Part shown: positions 3,416 through 29,576 of the stretch, one piece after another
Layout: each line of letters starts with the position of its first letter
Position numbering within the stretch: the first letter of the stretch is position 1
Assembly (NCBI GenBank): GCA_015490995.1
Contig: WFWT01000069.1
Coordinates: forward strand, 1-64,000
From: Anaerolineae bacterium
Lineage (GTDB): Bacteria > Chloroflexota > Anaerolineae > JAADDB01
Length of the DNA stretch: 64,000 bases
Direction of reading: 5' to 3'
Program-made: the position numbers and the translations under genes
The notes under the pieces: generated by a model
Seen by the model: the letters and a program-made list of their open reading frames with translations, nothing else
What the model was told of the DNA's origin: nothing
Database searches by the model: none

Positions 3416-4249
3416 GTGAGGATGCGCTGGCTTCTTAACCCATTGAGCGAATGGCATATACCGTGGACGGTACCCGGCGTCCGCCAACCGGCCCGCTTGT
3501 TGGTCCGTTTAACCACCACGCTTGGTGGGGGAATAGTGCTTCTCCTCCTGTGGGAAGGGTTGGTCCGATGGCAGAACTACCCGCCTTACATTCTTCCCAG
3601 CCCAGGGCTGGTGTGGCACAAATTCCTCGCCGTCGCAGCCGACGGTACCCTGTGGCGTCACACCCGAATTACCCTGCTGGAAGTGGTGGCAGGTCTTGCC
3701 CTGGGGACCCTGACGGCTACGGCCTTAGGGTACATTCTGGCCAAATGCCCTTCCCTGGAATCCCTGATCGGTCCTTATCTCGTTGCTGCACAGGCCATAC
3801 CGGTAGTCGCCATCGCCCCCCTAATTATCATCTGGGCCGGCACCGGGCTCACGGCCAAGATCTTGGTTACCGCGCTCACGCTCTTCTTTCCCGTGCTGGT
3901 GAACACCATGGTTGGCATCCGTTCGGTCGAACAGGACTTGATCGACCTCATGCGTTCGCTGAACGCCTCCCGCTGGCAAACGTTTCGCCTGCTAGAGGTC
4001 CCTGCGGCTCTCCCCATCTTGCTGGGCGGGCTAAAGATCGGGACCGTGCTGGCCGTCATCGGCGCGGTGGTGGGCGAGTTTGTAGCGGCCGACCAGGGGC
4101 TGGGCTTCCTCATTAACCTGACGTCTCGCGGCACCCTGGACACCGCCTTGCTCTTCGTGACCCTCACAACGCTCATGGGCGTTGCCATCACGTTGTACCT
4201 GGCCGTGGTAGCCCTGGAACGACGGGTCCTGCGATGGCGCGACGGGTAG
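3416..4249 (+). CDS. ribX: ABC transporter permease (ThiX/SsuC-like; predicted riboflavin transporter RibX)
   Basis: Polytopic permease with EAA-type loop (LMRSLNASRWQTFRLLEVPAALPILLGGLKIG); first gene after the FMN riboswitch. Start may be ATG 3422. Confidence 0.8.
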   Translation: MRMRWLLNPLSEWHIPWTVPGVRQPARLLVRLTTTLGGGIVLLLLWEGLVRWQNYPPYILPSPGLVWHKFLAVAADGTLWRHTRITLLEVVAGLALGTLTATALGYILAKCPSLESLIGPYLVAAQAIPVVAIAPLIIIWAGTGLTAKILVTALTLFFPVLVNTMVGIRSVEQDLIDLMRSLNASRWQTFRLLEVPAALPILLGGLKIGTVLAVIGAVVGEFVAADQGLGFLINLTSRGTLDTALLFVTLTTLMGVAITLYLAVVALERRVLRWRDG

Positions 4250-21761: not shown

Positions 21762-22125
21762 TGGTCATTCACCTCCTTCATTGCTTGTGGGTGTGGGCCT
21801 CTCAGCCTGGGCGCGCGCTAAAACCCACTCCTTCCCACAGGCCTCTATTGTAGAGAGGGGGGACTGTCAAAACCTATCAGACTGTGTCCACCGACGTAGG
21901 GTTGGCCCGGTACCGCTTCGGTCCCCGGGGATGAGGCACGTTTCCCCATGCTCCCGTGCCTGGGTGATTGTCCCTCCATTCGCCTGTTGTTTATACTTCC
22001 TTCGGGGAACGGTCACACACCGGTCAACGCCATGGCAAGGCGTGGGGAAGCGCTTGGGCCTTGGGCGTAATGGCCGGTGGAGGCCGGATAAGATCACCAC
22101 GTCCCAGGTTATAAGGAGAGCGCCG

Positions 22126-23187
22126 ATGGAGACATGGTACGAGTATGTGGGGAACGTTCACATGCACACGGTGCACAGCGATGGTGAGGGGACTTTTGCG
22201 GACCTGGCACTGGCCGCGCGACGTGCAGGGTTGGATTTTATAGTGGTGACCGACCATAACGTGCTGGTCAAGGATGAGGAAGGGTATCGGCATGGAGTGC
22301 TGGTACTGGTGGGGGAAGAAATTCATGACCGGGAACGGTCCCCAGAAGTGAACCACTTGCTTTGTCTTGGGATCAGGGAGGACTTGGCTCACCTGGCCCA
22401 CGACCCGCAAGCGCTGATCGACGCTGTAAACGAGCAGGGAGGATTAACCTTTATCGCTCATCCCATTGAGCGAAGTGCTCCCTTGGTGCCGGAAACATAC
22501 CCGTGGGTGGACTGGCATGTGCGCGGTTTTACCGGTATTGAGTTGTGGAATTACATGTCCTCGTTGCGGGAGTTTGCCGTGAATCGCTGGGTGGGGTTAG
22601 CCCTTTCCTTCTTTCCTAAGTACTTTGTGAAAGCACCCTTGCCCGAGGTGCTCGGTTTGTGGGATGATCTCTTGCGTGAGGGTAAGGTGGTAGCCATCGG
22701 CGGTTCGGACGCACACGCGCACGTGTATTCCCTAGGCCCTTTCCGTCGGTGTATTTTCCCCTACGAGTTTCTGTTCCGCACCGTGAACACCCATATTTTG
22801 ACACCGACGCCCTTCGTGGGGGATGTGGCCCACGATGCAGCGCTGGTGTATGAAGCCTTGCGCTTGGGACACGTGTGGGTGGGATATGACCTGATCGGTG
22901 ACACGCGACATGTGCGCTTCTGGGCCACCGGTGCGGGGGGCATACACGTTATCATGGGGGACAGCATCCCTGTAAGCCGGAATGTGACCTTGCATGCTGT
23001 GTTGCCGCGACCGGCTCGCATCCTTTTGCGGAAAGATGGGGAGATAGTGCATGAAGTGCGCGGGCAGACACTCACGTATCGCGTGCTGGAACCGGGTGTC
23101 TATCGGCTAGAGGCCTGGCGGCGCTCATGGGGCAAGGAGCGTGGCTGGGTCTTCACCAACCCCATCTACGTGGAAGCGGACAATTAA
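22126..23187 (+). CDS. PHP domain metallophosphoesterase
   Basis: NVHMHTVHSDGEGTFADLALAARRAGLDFIVVTDHN; RBS aaggaga; ORF upstream extension rejected. Confidence 0.88.
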   Translation: METWYEYVGNVHMHTVHSDGEGTFADLALAARRAGLDFIVVTDHNVLVKDEEGYRHGVLVLVGEEIHDRERSPEVNHLLCLGIREDLAHLAHDPQALIDAVNEQGGLTFIAHPIERSAPLVPETYPWVDWHVRGFTGIELWNYMSSLREFAVNRWVGLALSFFPKYFVKAPLPEVLGLWDDLLREGKVVAIGGSDAHAHVYSLGPFRRCIFPYEFLFRTVNTHILTPTPFVGDVAHDAALVYEALRLGHVWVGYDLIGDTRHVRFWATGAGGIHVIMGDSIPVSRNVTLHAVLPRPARILLRKDGEIVHEVRGQTLTYRVLEPGVYRLEAWRRSWGKERGWVFTNPIYVEADN

Positions 23188-24572
23188 TGGGGCGCCCTCT
23201 GCTCATCGTGGTGGCCGTTGGGGCAACAAGGGAGGGTAAACCAGAACGTGCTTCCTCGGCCGGGTGTGCTTGTCACACCAACCTGACCTCCATGGGCTTC
23301 GACCAAACTGCGGACAATGGCCAGGCCCAACCCGGTACCTCCTGCTTCTCGGGTGCGGGCGGGATCACCCCGCCAGAAACGATCGAACACGTGGGGAAGG
23401 TGTTCCGGAGGGATGCCGGGGCCGGTGTCTGTGATCTCCACCCGTACCCATCCCGAAGAGCGGTCTTCCCGGACACGCACGGTGATCTCCCCACCCGGCG
23501 GTGTGTGACGTAAAGCGTTGTTCAGCACATTGTGCATGATTTGGCCCAACCTGTCCGGGTCGCCTGTGATGTGTACGGGATGAGGCGGAGTATGCAGGTG
23601 CACACGGATGTCCTGAGCGGCCGCGGCCAGGTGGAACGTGTCCACAATGTGGTGAATAAAGGCGCGTAGGTCCACGGTCTGACGATGTAGGGGCAAGCGG
23701 CCCATGTCGGCCAGGGCCAGGTCGCGCAGGTCTTCTACCAGGCGGTGCAACAGCCGAACTTCGTCATAAAGGCGTGCTACTTCCCGGCCGTTGATGGGGT
23801 AGACTCCATCCAGCATGGCCTGAAGGTTGGCCTGGATGACTGTTAAAGGGGTGCGGAGTTCATGGGCGATGTCGGCCAACAGCTGACGTTGAGCGTTTTC
23901 CGAGCGTTCCAGTGCGGTGGCCATTTCGTTAAACGCGCGGGCGACGGCTACCACCTCGGCCGGCCCCTTCTCGGGCACGCGATGATGAAATTCGCGACGG
24001 GCCAGGCGACGGGCAGCTGTGGCCACCTGGCGAAGGGGAGCGGTAACGTAGCGCGCGGTTGCCACGCTCAGGAGCACGGCTCCCAGGAGCACAACCAGTA
24101 CGGCCGTCCATAACATGTTGCGCACAGTGGTGAGAAAGGCCTGTTCCAGGGCGGGCAGCCGAGGGCCGACTGTGCCCGGTGGAAGGAATACGGCGTACCC
24201 CACCACTTCCTCGTCCACCCGGATAGGTACGCGCAGTGGGCGGAGGGCGGGGGGAAGCCGTTGGCCAGGCCGCAGCCTTCCAGCACCCACGATTATTCTC
24301 CCGTTCGCATCGGTAAGCACAAGGCGGGGTGCGGATGGATGCTGGCGACGGCGTTGGTTAATGAACTGCCCAATACCTGCCCAGGTACCGTGTGTGCGGT
24401 AATACTCGGCCAGTTCCTCGGTCACTCGGGGCAGGGCGGCCCGAAGGGTGTCCCGCACGTACACGCGGAATGCGGTATCGGTCGCGCGGTTGATCAGCAG
24501 GGCCACTGCCAGGATGCCCAGCGCGATGACCAGGGCAAAGGCCAGACTCAGGCGTGCCCAGAGGTGGTTCAC
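23184..24572 (-). CDS. Sensor histidine kinase (HAMP, HisKA, HATPase)
   Basis: LLADIAHELRTPLTVIQANLQAML; ITDTGPGIPPEHLPHVFDRFWRGDPARTREAGGTGLGLAIVRSLVEAHGG. Confidence 0.95.
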   Translation of the reverse strand: MNHLWARLSLAFALVIALGILAVALLINRATDTAFRVYVRDTLRAALPRVTEELAEYYRTHGTWAGIGQFINQRRRQHPSAPRLVLTDANGRIIVGAGRLRPGQRLPPALRPLRVPIRVDEEVVGYAVFLPPGTVGPRLPALEQAFLTTVRNMLWTAVLVVLLGAVLLSVATARYVTAPLRQVATAARRLARREFHHRVPEKGPAEVVAVARAFNEMATALERSENAQRQLLADIAHELRTPLTVIQANLQAMLDGVYPINGREVARLYDEVRLLHRLVEDLRDLALADMGRLPLHRQTVDLRAFIHHIVDTFHLAAAAQDIRVHLHTPPHPVHITGDPDRLGQIMHNVLNNALRHTPPGGEITVRVREDRSSGWVRVEITDTGPGIPPEHLPHVFDRFWRGDPARTREAGGTGLGLAIVRSLVEAHGGQVGVTSTPGRGSTFWFTLPCCPNGHHDEQRAPH

Positions 24573-25264
24573 CGGTCGTCTCGCAGTCGGTATCCTACAC
24601 CGTACACCGTCTCGATATAACGGGGGTGTTTGGGGTCCTCTTCAATCTTACGGCGTAAGTTTTTGATGTGGCTGTCCACCGTACGTGCCAGCCCCTCGTA
24701 CGAGTGGCCGAACGCGCGTTCGATGAGCTCCAAGCGGGTAAAAGCCCGGCCGGGGTGCTGCATGAACACCCGAAGCAGGGCGAATTCGGCCGGAGTGAGC
24801 TCAACAGGTTGGCCTTGTCGGGTCACTTCGTGTCGTTCCACGTCCATTCGCAGCTCACCCACCACCAACACGGAGGACCGGGGTGAGCTTCCTCCCTGTG
24901 CCCGTCTCAGAACTGCCCGCACACGGGCGACCACTTCCCGTGGGTTGAACGGTTTGGTCACGTAGTCGTCTGCTCCTAGTTCGAGCCCGACGATTTTGTC
25001 GGTGTCATCGACGCGGGCGGTGAGCATGATGATGGGGATGGGAGCAAGATGTTCGTCTCTTCGCACGGTGCGGGTAATCTCCCACCCATCACGGTGAGGC
25101 AGCATAATGTCCAGCACAATCAGGTCAGGGCGCTCGCGGCGGATGACGTGTAGCGCGCTCTCACCATCATAGGCGGTGAGCACGGTAAATCCTTCCTGTT
25201 CCAAGTAGGCACGAAGGACCCGCACGATCTCCCGGTCGTCGTCCACCACCAACACGCGCGTCAT
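24569..25264 (-). CDS. OmpR/PhoB-family response regulator
   Basis: MTRVLVVDDDREIVRVLRAYLEQEGF...DLIVLDIMLPHRDGWEI...GADDYVTKPFNPREVVARVRAVLRR; C-term wHTH. Confidence 0.95.
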   Translation of the reverse strand: MTRVLVVDDDREIVRVLRAYLEQEGFTVLTAYDGESALHVIRRERPDLIVLDIMLPHRDGWEITRTVRRDEHLAPIPIIMLTARVDDTDKIVGLELGADDYVTKPFNPREVVARVRAVLRRAQGGSSPRSSVLVVGELRMDVERHEVTRQGQPVELTPAEFALLRVFMQHPGRAFTRLELIERAFGHSYEGLARTVDSHIKNLRRKIEEDPKHPRYIETVYGVGYRLRDDR

Positions 25265-25596
25265 GGGTCGTGAGACGGTGTTTCTTCCTCCGCCGTGGTT
25301 CCCTCCGGCTGCAGGTAGCCGCCTCGCATCAACAGTTGGCGTACGCGAGGCAGGTTCATGCCAAAACCGATGAGCACTTCGCCGTCAATGACCAGCGTTG
25401 GGGTGATGAAACGGCCGGCAATTTGTTTCAACTCTTCCATGTGTTTAGGGTCCTGCGTGACATCCTTTTCCACGTAAGGGACATGGTGCTTGGCGAAGAA
25501 CCTCTTCGCCGCTTGGCAGTCCCCTCAGGTAGGTTGGGTGTAGATGACAACCCCTTTGGGGGTACGTTGCCAGAGTTGGCTCACTTTTTTCCACAT
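25261..25596 (-). CDS. Glutaredoxin-like predicted selenoprotein (UGA = Sec in UGDC motif)
   Basis: MWKKVSQLWQRTPKGVVIYTQPT[UGA]GDCQAAKRFFAKHHVPYVEKDVTQDPKHMEELKQIAGRFITPTLVIDGEVLIGFG...; RBS CAGGAGG before ATG; in-frame TGA 25525-25527 in the first position of CxxC; hairpin GGCGAAGA-GGT-TCTTCGCC 22 nt downstream. Confidence 0.8.
25492..25510 (-). promoter_or_regulatory. Bacterial SECIS-like hairpin
   Basis: Minus strand GGCGAAGA GGT TCTTCGCC, 8-bp perfect stem with GGU loop inside the coding sequence. Confidence 0.75.
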
Positions 25597-25721
25597 AACT
25601 GCCTCCTGGGGATTACGGGGTGGGCTTGTTTCCGCCGGAGCCATTATGCATGTCTGGCAGTACCTTTGTCAAAAGCTGTCGGTCCGGCGAGGGTGGCGGT
25701 ACAATCATAGTGTGACAGGAT

Positions 25722-26327
25722 ATGGGAATTCGGGGGGAGAGGCAGGTCATGTTGGGTAATCGGGAGATGTACGTGTGGACCCGGCCGGACGGTCGGCGGA
25801 TAGTGGTAGTGCACGGGGATCTCACTGCGGAGCGGGTGGATGCGGTGGTAAACGCGGCCAACGAGCACTTGGTTCACGGTGGTGGTGTGGCCGGCGCTAT
25901 TGTGCGCAAGGGCGGCCAGGAGATTCAGGAGGCAAGTCGTCGCTGGGTGCAGGAACATGGGCCCGTGCCCACCGGCGGTGCGGCCATTACCCCAGGAGGA
26001 CGTTTACCCGCTCGATATGTCATCCACGCGGTAGGTCCACGTTGGGGAATGGGAGATGAGAAGCGCCTTTTGTACCGGGCAGTTCAGAGTGCCTTGCGTC
26101 TTGCCCACGAACATCACCTGACGAGTGTGGCCCTACCCGCCATCTCTACCGGGATATTTGGCTTTCCCAAGCCTCTAGGGGTAAAAGTTATTCTCGACGC
26201 GGTCGTCGATTTTTTGGACGCCCATCCCGAGACCACCCTTCGGGAAGTTCGACTGTGCAACATTGATCGATACACGTGCGATCTCTTCGTGCAAGCGTTG
26301 CAGGAGCGGGCTGGTTCCGGCGAATAG
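25722..26327 (+). CDS. Macro domain (ADP-ribose-1''-phosphate-binding) protein
   Basis: [37 protein letters not shown]...[14 protein letters not shown]; start may be ATG 25749. Confidence 0.92.
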
Positions 26328-26503
26328 TCCGTTAGCGGTGGGCTGGCGCAACGAGGCTCCATCCCCCAGGCCGCGTGGTCAGCGATGTGTGTGCCTCCTT
26401 AGGGTGTCCCTCCGCGCAGCGTTGCGGCGGACTGGCTGTTGAAAGTCCTTGAAAGTAGTGGCTTGCGTTTGTGACTTCGGATGGCAAAGGGGAAGTGTAA
26501 GGA

Positions 26504-27310
26504 ATGTTGGCCAAGCGCATTATTCCTTGCTTGGACGTTCACGCAGGCCGGGTAGTCAAAGGGGTGAACTTTGTCAACCTGCGTGATGCCGGGGATCCGG
26601 TGGAGCAGGCCGCGGTGTACGATGCCGAGGGCGCGGATGAGCTGGTGTTCCTTGACATTACCGCCACTCACGAGGGCAGGGATATCATGGTGGATGTGGT
26701 GCGGCGGGTGGCGGATACGGTGTTCATCCCCTTTACCGTGGGTGGGGGATTGCGCACCGTGGATGATATGTGGCGCATGTTGCAGGCGGGTGCGGATAAG
26801 GTGAGCATCAACTCAGCCGCGGTGCGCACCCCGGAGGTGATTACCGAAGGGGCGAAGCGGTTTGGTTCTCAGTGTATTGTCGTGGCCATTGACGCGCGTC
26901 GGCGACGGCGTCCACCCGCGCCTGGGGAGTCTCCCTGGGAGGTGTATATCAGCGGGGGGCGGGTACCCACCGGCCTGGATGCAGTAGCGTGGGCACGTGA
27001 AGTGGAGGATCGAGGGGCAGGGGAGATTTTGTTGACCAGCATGGACGCGGACGGCACACAGGCAGGATATGACGTGGCGCTCACGCGCGCGGTGGCCGAA
27101 GCAGTGCGTATTCCTGTGATTGCCTCCGGTGGGGCGGGTCGGTTGGAGCACTTTTATCAGGTGTTCACCGAAGGTCGGGCCGACGCGGCTTTAGCTGCCT
27201 CCCTTTTTCACTTCCGGCAGGTGCGCATTGCTGATGTCAAGCAATTCCTCCACGAGCGGGGCATCCCGGTGCGCTTAGTGGACCCCGCACCCGTGGACGC
27301 GGAAGGATGA
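26504..27310 (+). CDS. hisF: Imidazole glycerol phosphate synthase cyclase subunit
   Basis: [34 protein letters not shown]...[31 protein letters not shown]. Confidence 0.98.
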
Positions 27311-28461
27311 CACACATGACCTCGTTCGAAGTGCCCGTCTACGCCAAGCGCGGTTTGACCGTTGTCCGGGGTAAAGGCGCGCTCGTCTGGGATGATGCAG
27401 GGCAGGTGTACGTTGATTGCATCGGAGGGCATGGCGTCGCGGTAGTGGGCCATAGCCATCCTCGCGTCGTTGCGGCCATCTGCCGCCAGGCGGAGCGTCT
27501 GATTATCTGTCCGAACACTCTGGACAACGATGTGCGTCGGGCGTACCTGGAACGCTTGGTGTCCGTTACACCGCCCGGGTTGGACTACGTTTTTCTGGCG
27601 AATTCCGGCGCGGAGGCCGTAGAAGCGGCCATTAAATTCGCGCGCGTGGCCACCGGCAGGACCCGTCTGGTGGCCATGACCCGGAGTTTTCACGGTCGCA
27701 CAATGGGCGCCCTTTCTCTCACCGGTAATCGTAAATACAGGGACCCATTTACGCCTCTGGTGCCCGACGTCGTTCATGTGCCCTTTGGCGATCTGGAAGC
27801 GGCACGTGAAGCCGTGGATGAGCGCACGGCAGCGGTGGTGGTGGAACCAGTACAGGGCGAGGGAGGGGTGCATCCTGCTCCGGACGGATATCTGGCCACT
27901 TTGCGGGCACTGTGTGACAGAGCTGGCGCGTTGCTGGTGGTGGATGAGGTGCAGACCGGCTTTGGGCGCACCGGTGCATGGTTCGCGGTGGAGCACTGGC
28001 AGGTCATACCAGACGTGCTTTGTCTGGCCAAAGGGATAGCCGGAGGGGTGCCGATGGGGGCCACGGTGGTGACCGAGCGGGTTGCCCGCGCGTTGAAACC
28101 CGGGCATCATGGGTCCACCTTTGGCGGCAATCCCCTTGCTTGCGCGGCGGGTTTGGCCGTGCTGGACATCCTCGCGGAGGAGGACCTGGTAGCCCAAGCG
28201 CGTGCCAAAGGGGAATATCTCCTGGCCGGGTTGCGGGCGTTAACCTCATCGCAAGTGCGGGCAGTGCGTGGTTTGGGCTTGATGGTGGGCCTGGAATTGC
28301 GGACTCGTGCAACGCCGTACTTGCGACGGCTCCAGGAGGACTACCGGGTGCTGGCATTGCCGGCCGGGCCAAATGTGATTCGCTTGTTGCCGCCCTTGGT
28401 GATCACGTATGAGCAGCTGGATACCGTGATACAGGCCCTCCAGGAGGTGTTAGAGACGTGA
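27307..28461 (+). CDS. Acetylornithine/[LysW]-aminoadipate semialdehyde aminotransferase (ArgD/LysJ family)
   Basis: Class III aminotransferase; [44 protein letters not shown]; followed by LysK-like gene. Confidence 0.88.
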
Positions 28462-29576
28462 CGACGGTGGCGGACGCGTTGTCCCAGACGCAGAAACCGG
28501 AGATTTCGTTGTTAATAGAGGCGGTGCGTATCCCTTCCCTTTCCGGGCAGGAACGTGCCCTGGCCGAATTCCTGGTGGCCTGGGCGCAAGAGCATGGGTA
28601 CACGCGCGCGTACGTGGATCCGGCAGGCAATGCCGTGGCGGAGATGGGCTCCCCAGACGCGACGCGGACGCTCGTCCTGCTGGGGCATATGGACACCGTG
28701 GCCGGGGAGATCCCCGTGCGTGTGGAAAACGGCAAACTTTACGGTCGAGGGACGGTGGACGCCAAGGGGCCCCTATGCGCGTTTTTGGCCGCGGTAGCCA
28801 ACGTGGGACCGTTGCCTGATGTACGATTTGTCGTGGTGGGAGCCACCGAAGAAGAGGCAGCCACTTCTCGAGGTGCGCGCTTTATTCGTGACCGGTTTCT
28901 GGCCGAGGGCATTCCTCACGGATGCATTATCGGCGAGCCTAGCGGGTGGTCGAGCATCACTTTGGGATACAAGGGGCGGCTGCTCATTGACTTTACCGCC
29001 CAACAGACGGCCGCTCACACCGCGACGCCCGACGCGCTGGGCATCGCCGACCGGGTTTGCACGTGGTGGGCCGCGTTAAAGGTCTTCTGTCAGGAGTACA
29101 ACCAGGATAAACCCCGTGTCTTTGACCAGATCCTGCCCTCCCTGCGAGAGGTGCGCACCGTCAGCGACGGTCTCTCCGATCGGGTAGAGGCTCGGGTGGG
29201 GTTGCGGTTGCCGCCGGCCATGGATCGGGAAACGCTGGAGGAACGGATACGGACCATGGCCCAAGCGGCAGGGGGGGAGGTGCGTTTCTTCGGTTATGAG
29301 CCGGCGTTTCGGGCCGACAAGCATAACGCGTTGGTCCGAGCCCTGCGGGTAGCTATCCGACGGATGGGGGGGAGGCCGGGGTTTAAGGTCAAGACGGGCA
29401 CCAGTGACATGAACGTGGTGGGACCTGCCTGGAAGTGCCCAATTGTTGCCTATGGCCCTGGGGACTCCCGGCTTGATCACACCCCCAACGAGCATATTGG
29501 CCTGGACGAGTACATGCGAGGAGTGCGTGTGTTGGAGCTGGCCCTGCAACACTGGGCGACGGCGCCTTCTAAGTGA
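28458..29576 (+). CDS. lysK: [LysW]-lysine/ornithine hydrolase-like M20 peptidase (LysK family)
   Basis: [44 protein letters not shown]...[36 protein letters not shown]. Confidence 0.85.

Follow-up and report, generated by a model that had tools for sequence, protein, structure and literature searches.

An in-frame UGA and a SECIS-type hairpin in a probable selenoprotein glutaredoxin gene of an Anaerolineae bacterium

Gene organization and protein fold

The window, a stretch of 64,000 nucleotides from an Anaerolineae bacterium (contig WFWT01000069.1, assembly GCA_015490995.1), carries on its minus strand a small redox gene that appears to be broken by a stop codon (Table 1). The frame starts at an ATG that follows AGGAGG and the spacer CAGTT, passes through an in-frame TGA and ends at a second TGA. 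An earlier sequence-only reading had noted a good ribosome-binding site in front of this ATG, which the AGGAGG with its 5-nt spacing bears out, and had reported that the ORF track held nothing here except a 70-aa minus-strand ORF. The ordinary ORF list, made without read-through, indeed gives only this ORF, with a GTG start (25261-25473).

Table 1. Features of the locus in the window
Feature	Position	Strand	Description
RBS AGGAGG	25602..25607	-	Spacer CAGTT, 5 nt, to ATG 25596; read from sequence
Sec-glutaredoxin CDS	25264..25596	-	111 aa, MWKKVSQLWQRTPKGVVIYTQPT-U-GDCQAAKRFFAKHHVPYVEKDV...; stop TGA 25261-25263
UGA codon, predicted to be read as Sec	25525..25527	-	Residue 24, position 1 of UxxC (UGDC)
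Bacterial SECIS-type hairpin	25492..25510	-	8-bp stem GGCGAAGA/UCUUCGCC, GGU loop
OmpR-type response regulator	24569..25264	-	Pfam Response_reg and Trans_reg_C; ATG overlaps the glutaredoxin stop (ATGA)
Sensor histidine kinase	23184..24572	-	HAMP, HisKA, HATPase_c; 4-nt overlap with the regulator gene
Macro-domain protein	25722..26327	+	Divergent, upstream of the glutaredoxin gene; Pfam Macro, 2.8e-41

The Pfam Glutaredoxin domain (PF00462) spans the UGA, matching residues 16-74 (3.3e-17; 62.9 bits, cut-off 22.9). An AlphaFold2 model based on a 19-row alignment (pLDDT 86.9) shows the topology E-H-E-H-E-E-H of a thioredoxin fold, in which strand 16-20 is followed by helix 25-36, with Sec24 positioned just ahead of this first helix. 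The closest solved structures, with TM-scores given by target length, are thioredoxin-like BC3987 (0.89-0.91) and the glutaredoxin cGrx1 (0.88-0.89), with identities to the two of 31-39%. Both the Pfam score above the cut-off and the fold topology thus place the protein among the glutaredoxins.

Conservation of the UGA codon

Searching 298 genomes from the same bacterial class gave a graded series of matches. The closest homologues, at 42-78% identity to the window protein, all have TGA at the Sec column, and the first matches lacking it form a separate group of the CGYC/CPYC type. TGA thus occupies the column in all 20 class loci (the window and 19 homologues), with a Cys codon in none. When the alignment was used to query a species collection, 29 loci were found, 24 of them with TGA: 22 from Chloroflexota, with Ardenticatenia, Caldilineae and Anaerolineales named in the record titles, and two from Zixibacteria. 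The remaining five, from Bacillota (two), Actinomycetota (two) and Acidobacteriota (one), have a Cys codon. The class set and the species collection share genomes, so these counts are not additive.

Across the collections compared, Cys forms of the motif occur in other phyla only. UGA was found in every Chloroflexota member of the subfamily that was read, at a column where homologues from Bacillota, Actinomycetota and Acidobacteriota have TGY, which is the pattern expected of a bacterial selenoprotein. This agrees with the sequence-only reading, which had put the TGA exactly at the first Cys of a glutaredoxin CxxC and called for an alignment of this column: the Pfam match crosses the UGA and the distant homologues have Cys.

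A TGA one base away from a Cys codon in a 150-contig draft assembly could also reflect a sequencing error, with TGT or TGC as the real codon, or a recent nonsense mutation that left a pseudogene. We consider this very improbable, since the same TGA is present in the 19 class homologues and in 24 species-collection loci from separate assemblies, the homologues align with the window protein over most of its length and the frame remains homologous almost to its end. Moreover, the hairpin that follows the UGA is kept by compensatory synonymous changes (see below), for which a sequencing error is a poor account, as the earlier reading had argued. The apparently broken gene is almost certainly intact, with its UGA read as selenocysteine by means of an RNA hairpin.

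In a tree of the subfamily, the window protein has L077 as its nearest row, at 82% identity across 79 columns. This tree, in which many branches are weakly supported, requires three changes of the Sec/Cys label, with the Cys rows nested near the Zixibacteria rows, and exchange of Sec and Cys within the subfamily therefore probably happened. The same-genus genome G105 has selA and gave no close Sec form, so the distribution of the gene is patchy.

In L062 (around the UGA at reverse-strand position 4087) the motif is UADS, with Ser in place of the resolving Cys. The resolving Cys is therefore not universal, and this copy is possibly a monothiol form or an assembly error. The L064 copy has an extra in-frame TAG (SSD*HEKEL) beyond its Sec codon (UGA at 2471) and may be broken or misassembled. 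In six loci from five genomes (L054, L056, L059, L060, L062 and L064) a second Sec-glutaredoxin lies directly upstream. It is of the type YTQPGU[LM]FCGKVKEFLSQ (YTQSGULFC in L064) and is accompanied by a conserved hairpin of its own, which in most loci reads GUGAAAGAGUUUCUUUCAC. L067, L068 and L069 are fusions in which the Sec-glutaredoxin domain is followed by a C-terminal domain of about 120 residues (IAVVGLSPDPSRPSHGVARYL), presumably similar to a CoA-binding-type domain. A longer, different glutaredoxin family, YTTPTU[GP]YC (L043, L044 and L045), varies across the class: some genomes have UGA, others Cys (CGYC, CPYC or CGFC). It is likely a further selenoprotein group.

Hairpin downstream of the UGA

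Measured from the UGA, the stem of the hairpin GGCGAAGA-GGU-UCUUCGCC begins at 14 nt and its loop at 22 nt. A 61-nt region containing the hairpin has a folding energy of -25.0 kcal/mol (z -2.7 relative to dinucleotide-shuffled sequences). In the published model of the bacterial SECIS, the apical loop has 3-9 nt with a G within the first two positions, the upper stem has 4-16 bp and the loop lies 16-37 nt from the UGA (PMC13188914). The 3-nt GGU loop, the 8-bp stem and the 22-nt distance all fall inside these ranges, so the SECIS layout described in the earlier reading is present. An Rfam scan of 22000-29000 returned no match, which is uninformative here.

The peptide encoded by the hairpin, AAKRFFA, is hairpin-prone by itself, as GCN-AAR...TTY-TTY-GCN is nearly palindromic. 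The hairpin could thus be a by-product of the peptide and not a SECIS, even if the UGA is read as Sec, and for this reason codon choice was tested. With synonymous codons randomized, none of 1000 versions was as stable as the window's own hairpin (z -3.8), which therefore exceeds what AAKRFFA would yield by chance. Over 20 loci the synonymous versions likewise folded far worse (mean z -2.2, combined p about 1e-15).

Codon usage in the stem and loop gives the same picture. In the second Ala and the second Phe codon, the third positions form G-C in 14 rows, A-U in six and a mismatch in none (Fisher p 2.6e-5, an optimistic value because related sequences are not independent), and those of Lys and the first Phe or Tyr form G-C in 18 rows and A-U in two. 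Two stem pairs thus swap between G-C and A-U, at four third positions that are all synonymously free. The loop codon is AGG in all 12 rows with Arg, where AGG accounts for 3-14% of the Arg codons in the respective genomes (3% in the window), and AGT in all eight rows with Ser, where AGT usage is 3-9%. Both codons preserve a loop with G followed by G or U. One Sec row of the species collection, L088, has CGT for Arg, and its loop still reads G then U.

In the 19-row alignment, 10 cells were changed on both sides of a pair, against 3.2 after shuffling, and none of 500 shuffles reached as high a count; when the structure was slid by one to three columns, the covariation signal disappeared. The Cys homologues provide a natural control. 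Five of them contain AAKRFF or AAKRYF, encode the Arg as CGT, AGA, CGC, CGC and CGT, and none had a comparable hairpin. With a covariance model derived from the rows, the window's own stretch scored 61.6 bits, Sec loci 34-64 bits and matching Cys loci 19 bits or less, although this model scores sequence too and many of the scored loci are members of its training set.

These results show RNA-level selection on the hairpin that follows the UGA. Its origin as a by-product of the peptide is highly unlikely, given the poor folding of synonymous versions and the Cys homologues with the same peptide that have kept no hairpin. The observation itself, a gene with an in-frame UGA followed by this hairpin, is confirmed.

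Selenocysteine machinery of the genome

The earlier reading had called for a genome search for selA, selB, selC and selD, and all four are present in the source genome (3.04 Mb, 99% complete): selA at 588 bits, selB at 310.9 bits (cut-off 242), tRNA-Sec (selC) at 77.8 bits with anticodon tca/UCA (ARAGORN), and selD at 377 bits. Within the class, selA was found in 250 of 298 genomes (84%), so its presence discriminates weakly, and for this reason its co-occurrence with the gene was set aside as weak evidence. No selA match was obtained in one genome carrying the gene, G132, which is 86% complete.

Because the glutaredoxin column is normally Cys, the UGA might instead be decoded as Cys, or as Trp, through a reassigned code or near-cognate read-through. 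Such decoding is extremely unlikely: the gene itself terminates at TGA, so UGA remains a stop codon in the source genome, the Sec machinery is complete, and the selection on the hairpin specifically fits decoding by SelB.

The selD gene has an in-frame TGA of its own (L018; C43 of the source genome, near 2400, minus strand). The encoded sequence is RCAG-U-ASK, and the TGA precedes GGCGCAGGUGCUGCGCC, a stem whose loop contains GGU. SelD is likely a second selenoprotein of this genome. It resembles the Sec-glutaredoxin in having the UGA near the N-terminus and a stem with a loop containing GGU, but belongs to another protein family and has its loop farther from the UGA (about 32 nt).

Genomic neighborhood

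The Sec-glutaredoxin gene heads an operon of overlapping genes that continues with a two-component system. A conserved link to this regulator/kinase pair was considered and rejected: in G105 the orthologous pair has no glutaredoxin gene in front, and the arrangement is therefore local. BLAST clustering placed regulators close to the gene in just two further loci, in a different arrangement.

A heavy-metal P-type ATPase or YHS cluster from BLAST lies within 4.5 kb in up to 10 of the 19 other loci, a raw count, uncorrected for background, that includes some loci that are close relatives or from the same genome. Two of these ATPase neighbors were verified by Pfam (HMA, E1-E2_ATPase). Recurring in smaller numbers are genes for cupredoxin, cytochrome c, CcmF, cytochrome b and DUF302 proteins. 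We regard the copper/cytochrome link as a lead only.

Proposed function

Together, the data support the interpretation of the sequence-only reading, a Sec-glutaredoxin with a SECIS. The gene very probably encodes a functional selenoprotein glutaredoxin, a dithiol-type oxidoreductase in which SelB and the hairpin direct Sec insertion at UGA codon 24. From known bacterial Sec decoding we infer that SelB carrying Sec-tRNA(Sec) would bind the hairpin just past codon 24, so that selenocysteine would be put in at the UGA. The predicted product is an oxidoreductase of thioredoxin fold with the active site Sec-Gly-Asp-Cys. By analogy to the glutaredoxin family, Sec24 would act as the attacking nucleophile and Cys27 as the resolving thiol in thiol/selenol-disulfide exchange.

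Its most likely activity is the reduction of cytoplasmic disulfides or mixed disulfides. Because relatives are often found near copper-type P-ATPase or cytochrome genes, the favored guess is a role in copper or cytochrome-thiol redox. It seems rather unlikely that the UGDC/UADC subfamily is dedicated to copper/cytochrome thiol redox and that here Sec insertion may also gate the two-component system. Since the regulator ATG overlaps the glutaredoxin stop, ribosomes halted at the UGA by a shortage of selenium would miss the regulator; if true, selenium supply would tune a signaling pathway through UGA termination upstream of the regulator.

Relation to known families and significance

Glutaredoxins with Sec (UxxC, PF00462) are listed among the experimentally verified selenoprotein families (PMC13188914) and have been counted earlier in bacterial genomes (PMC1794560), with selenoprotein glutaredoxins reported from Geobacter and Alkaliphilus/Clostridium oremlandii (PMC13188914, PMC1794560). 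The window protein shares their domain and their UxxC motif with Sec first and Cys last. It differs from them by its UGDC/UADC motif, its occurrence mainly in Chloroflexota and the tandem pairs seen in some loci, the Geobacter protein being compared by description. A literature search for selenoprotein, Chloroflexota and UGA together found no paper. What is new here is a Sec-dominated subfamily, mainly from Chloroflexota, of the already known Sec-glutaredoxins.

The best-related selenoprotein model of NCBIfam is NF041212 (Uxx_star), which matched all 19 scanned members at E 1e-12 or better and gave the window protein 62.8 bits against a cut-off of 66. The highest-scoring NCBIfam model for the window protein, TIGR02196 (GlrX_YruB), gave 65 bits against a cut-off of 88.55. 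The gene is missed by standard ORF calling and its product passes no cut-off of an NCBI curated family. Given the in-frame UGA and the lack of a family model, we infer that annotation pipelines would miss such genes. In at least two dozen genomes, mostly from Chloroflexota and two from Zixibacteria, members of the subfamily are probably either annotated as truncated or left out of the annotation. The neighborhood makes a role in copper or cytochrome redox testable, and the subfamily, with AAKRFF present in both Sec and Cys forms, offers a clean natural experiment on selection for a SECIS within a coding sequence.
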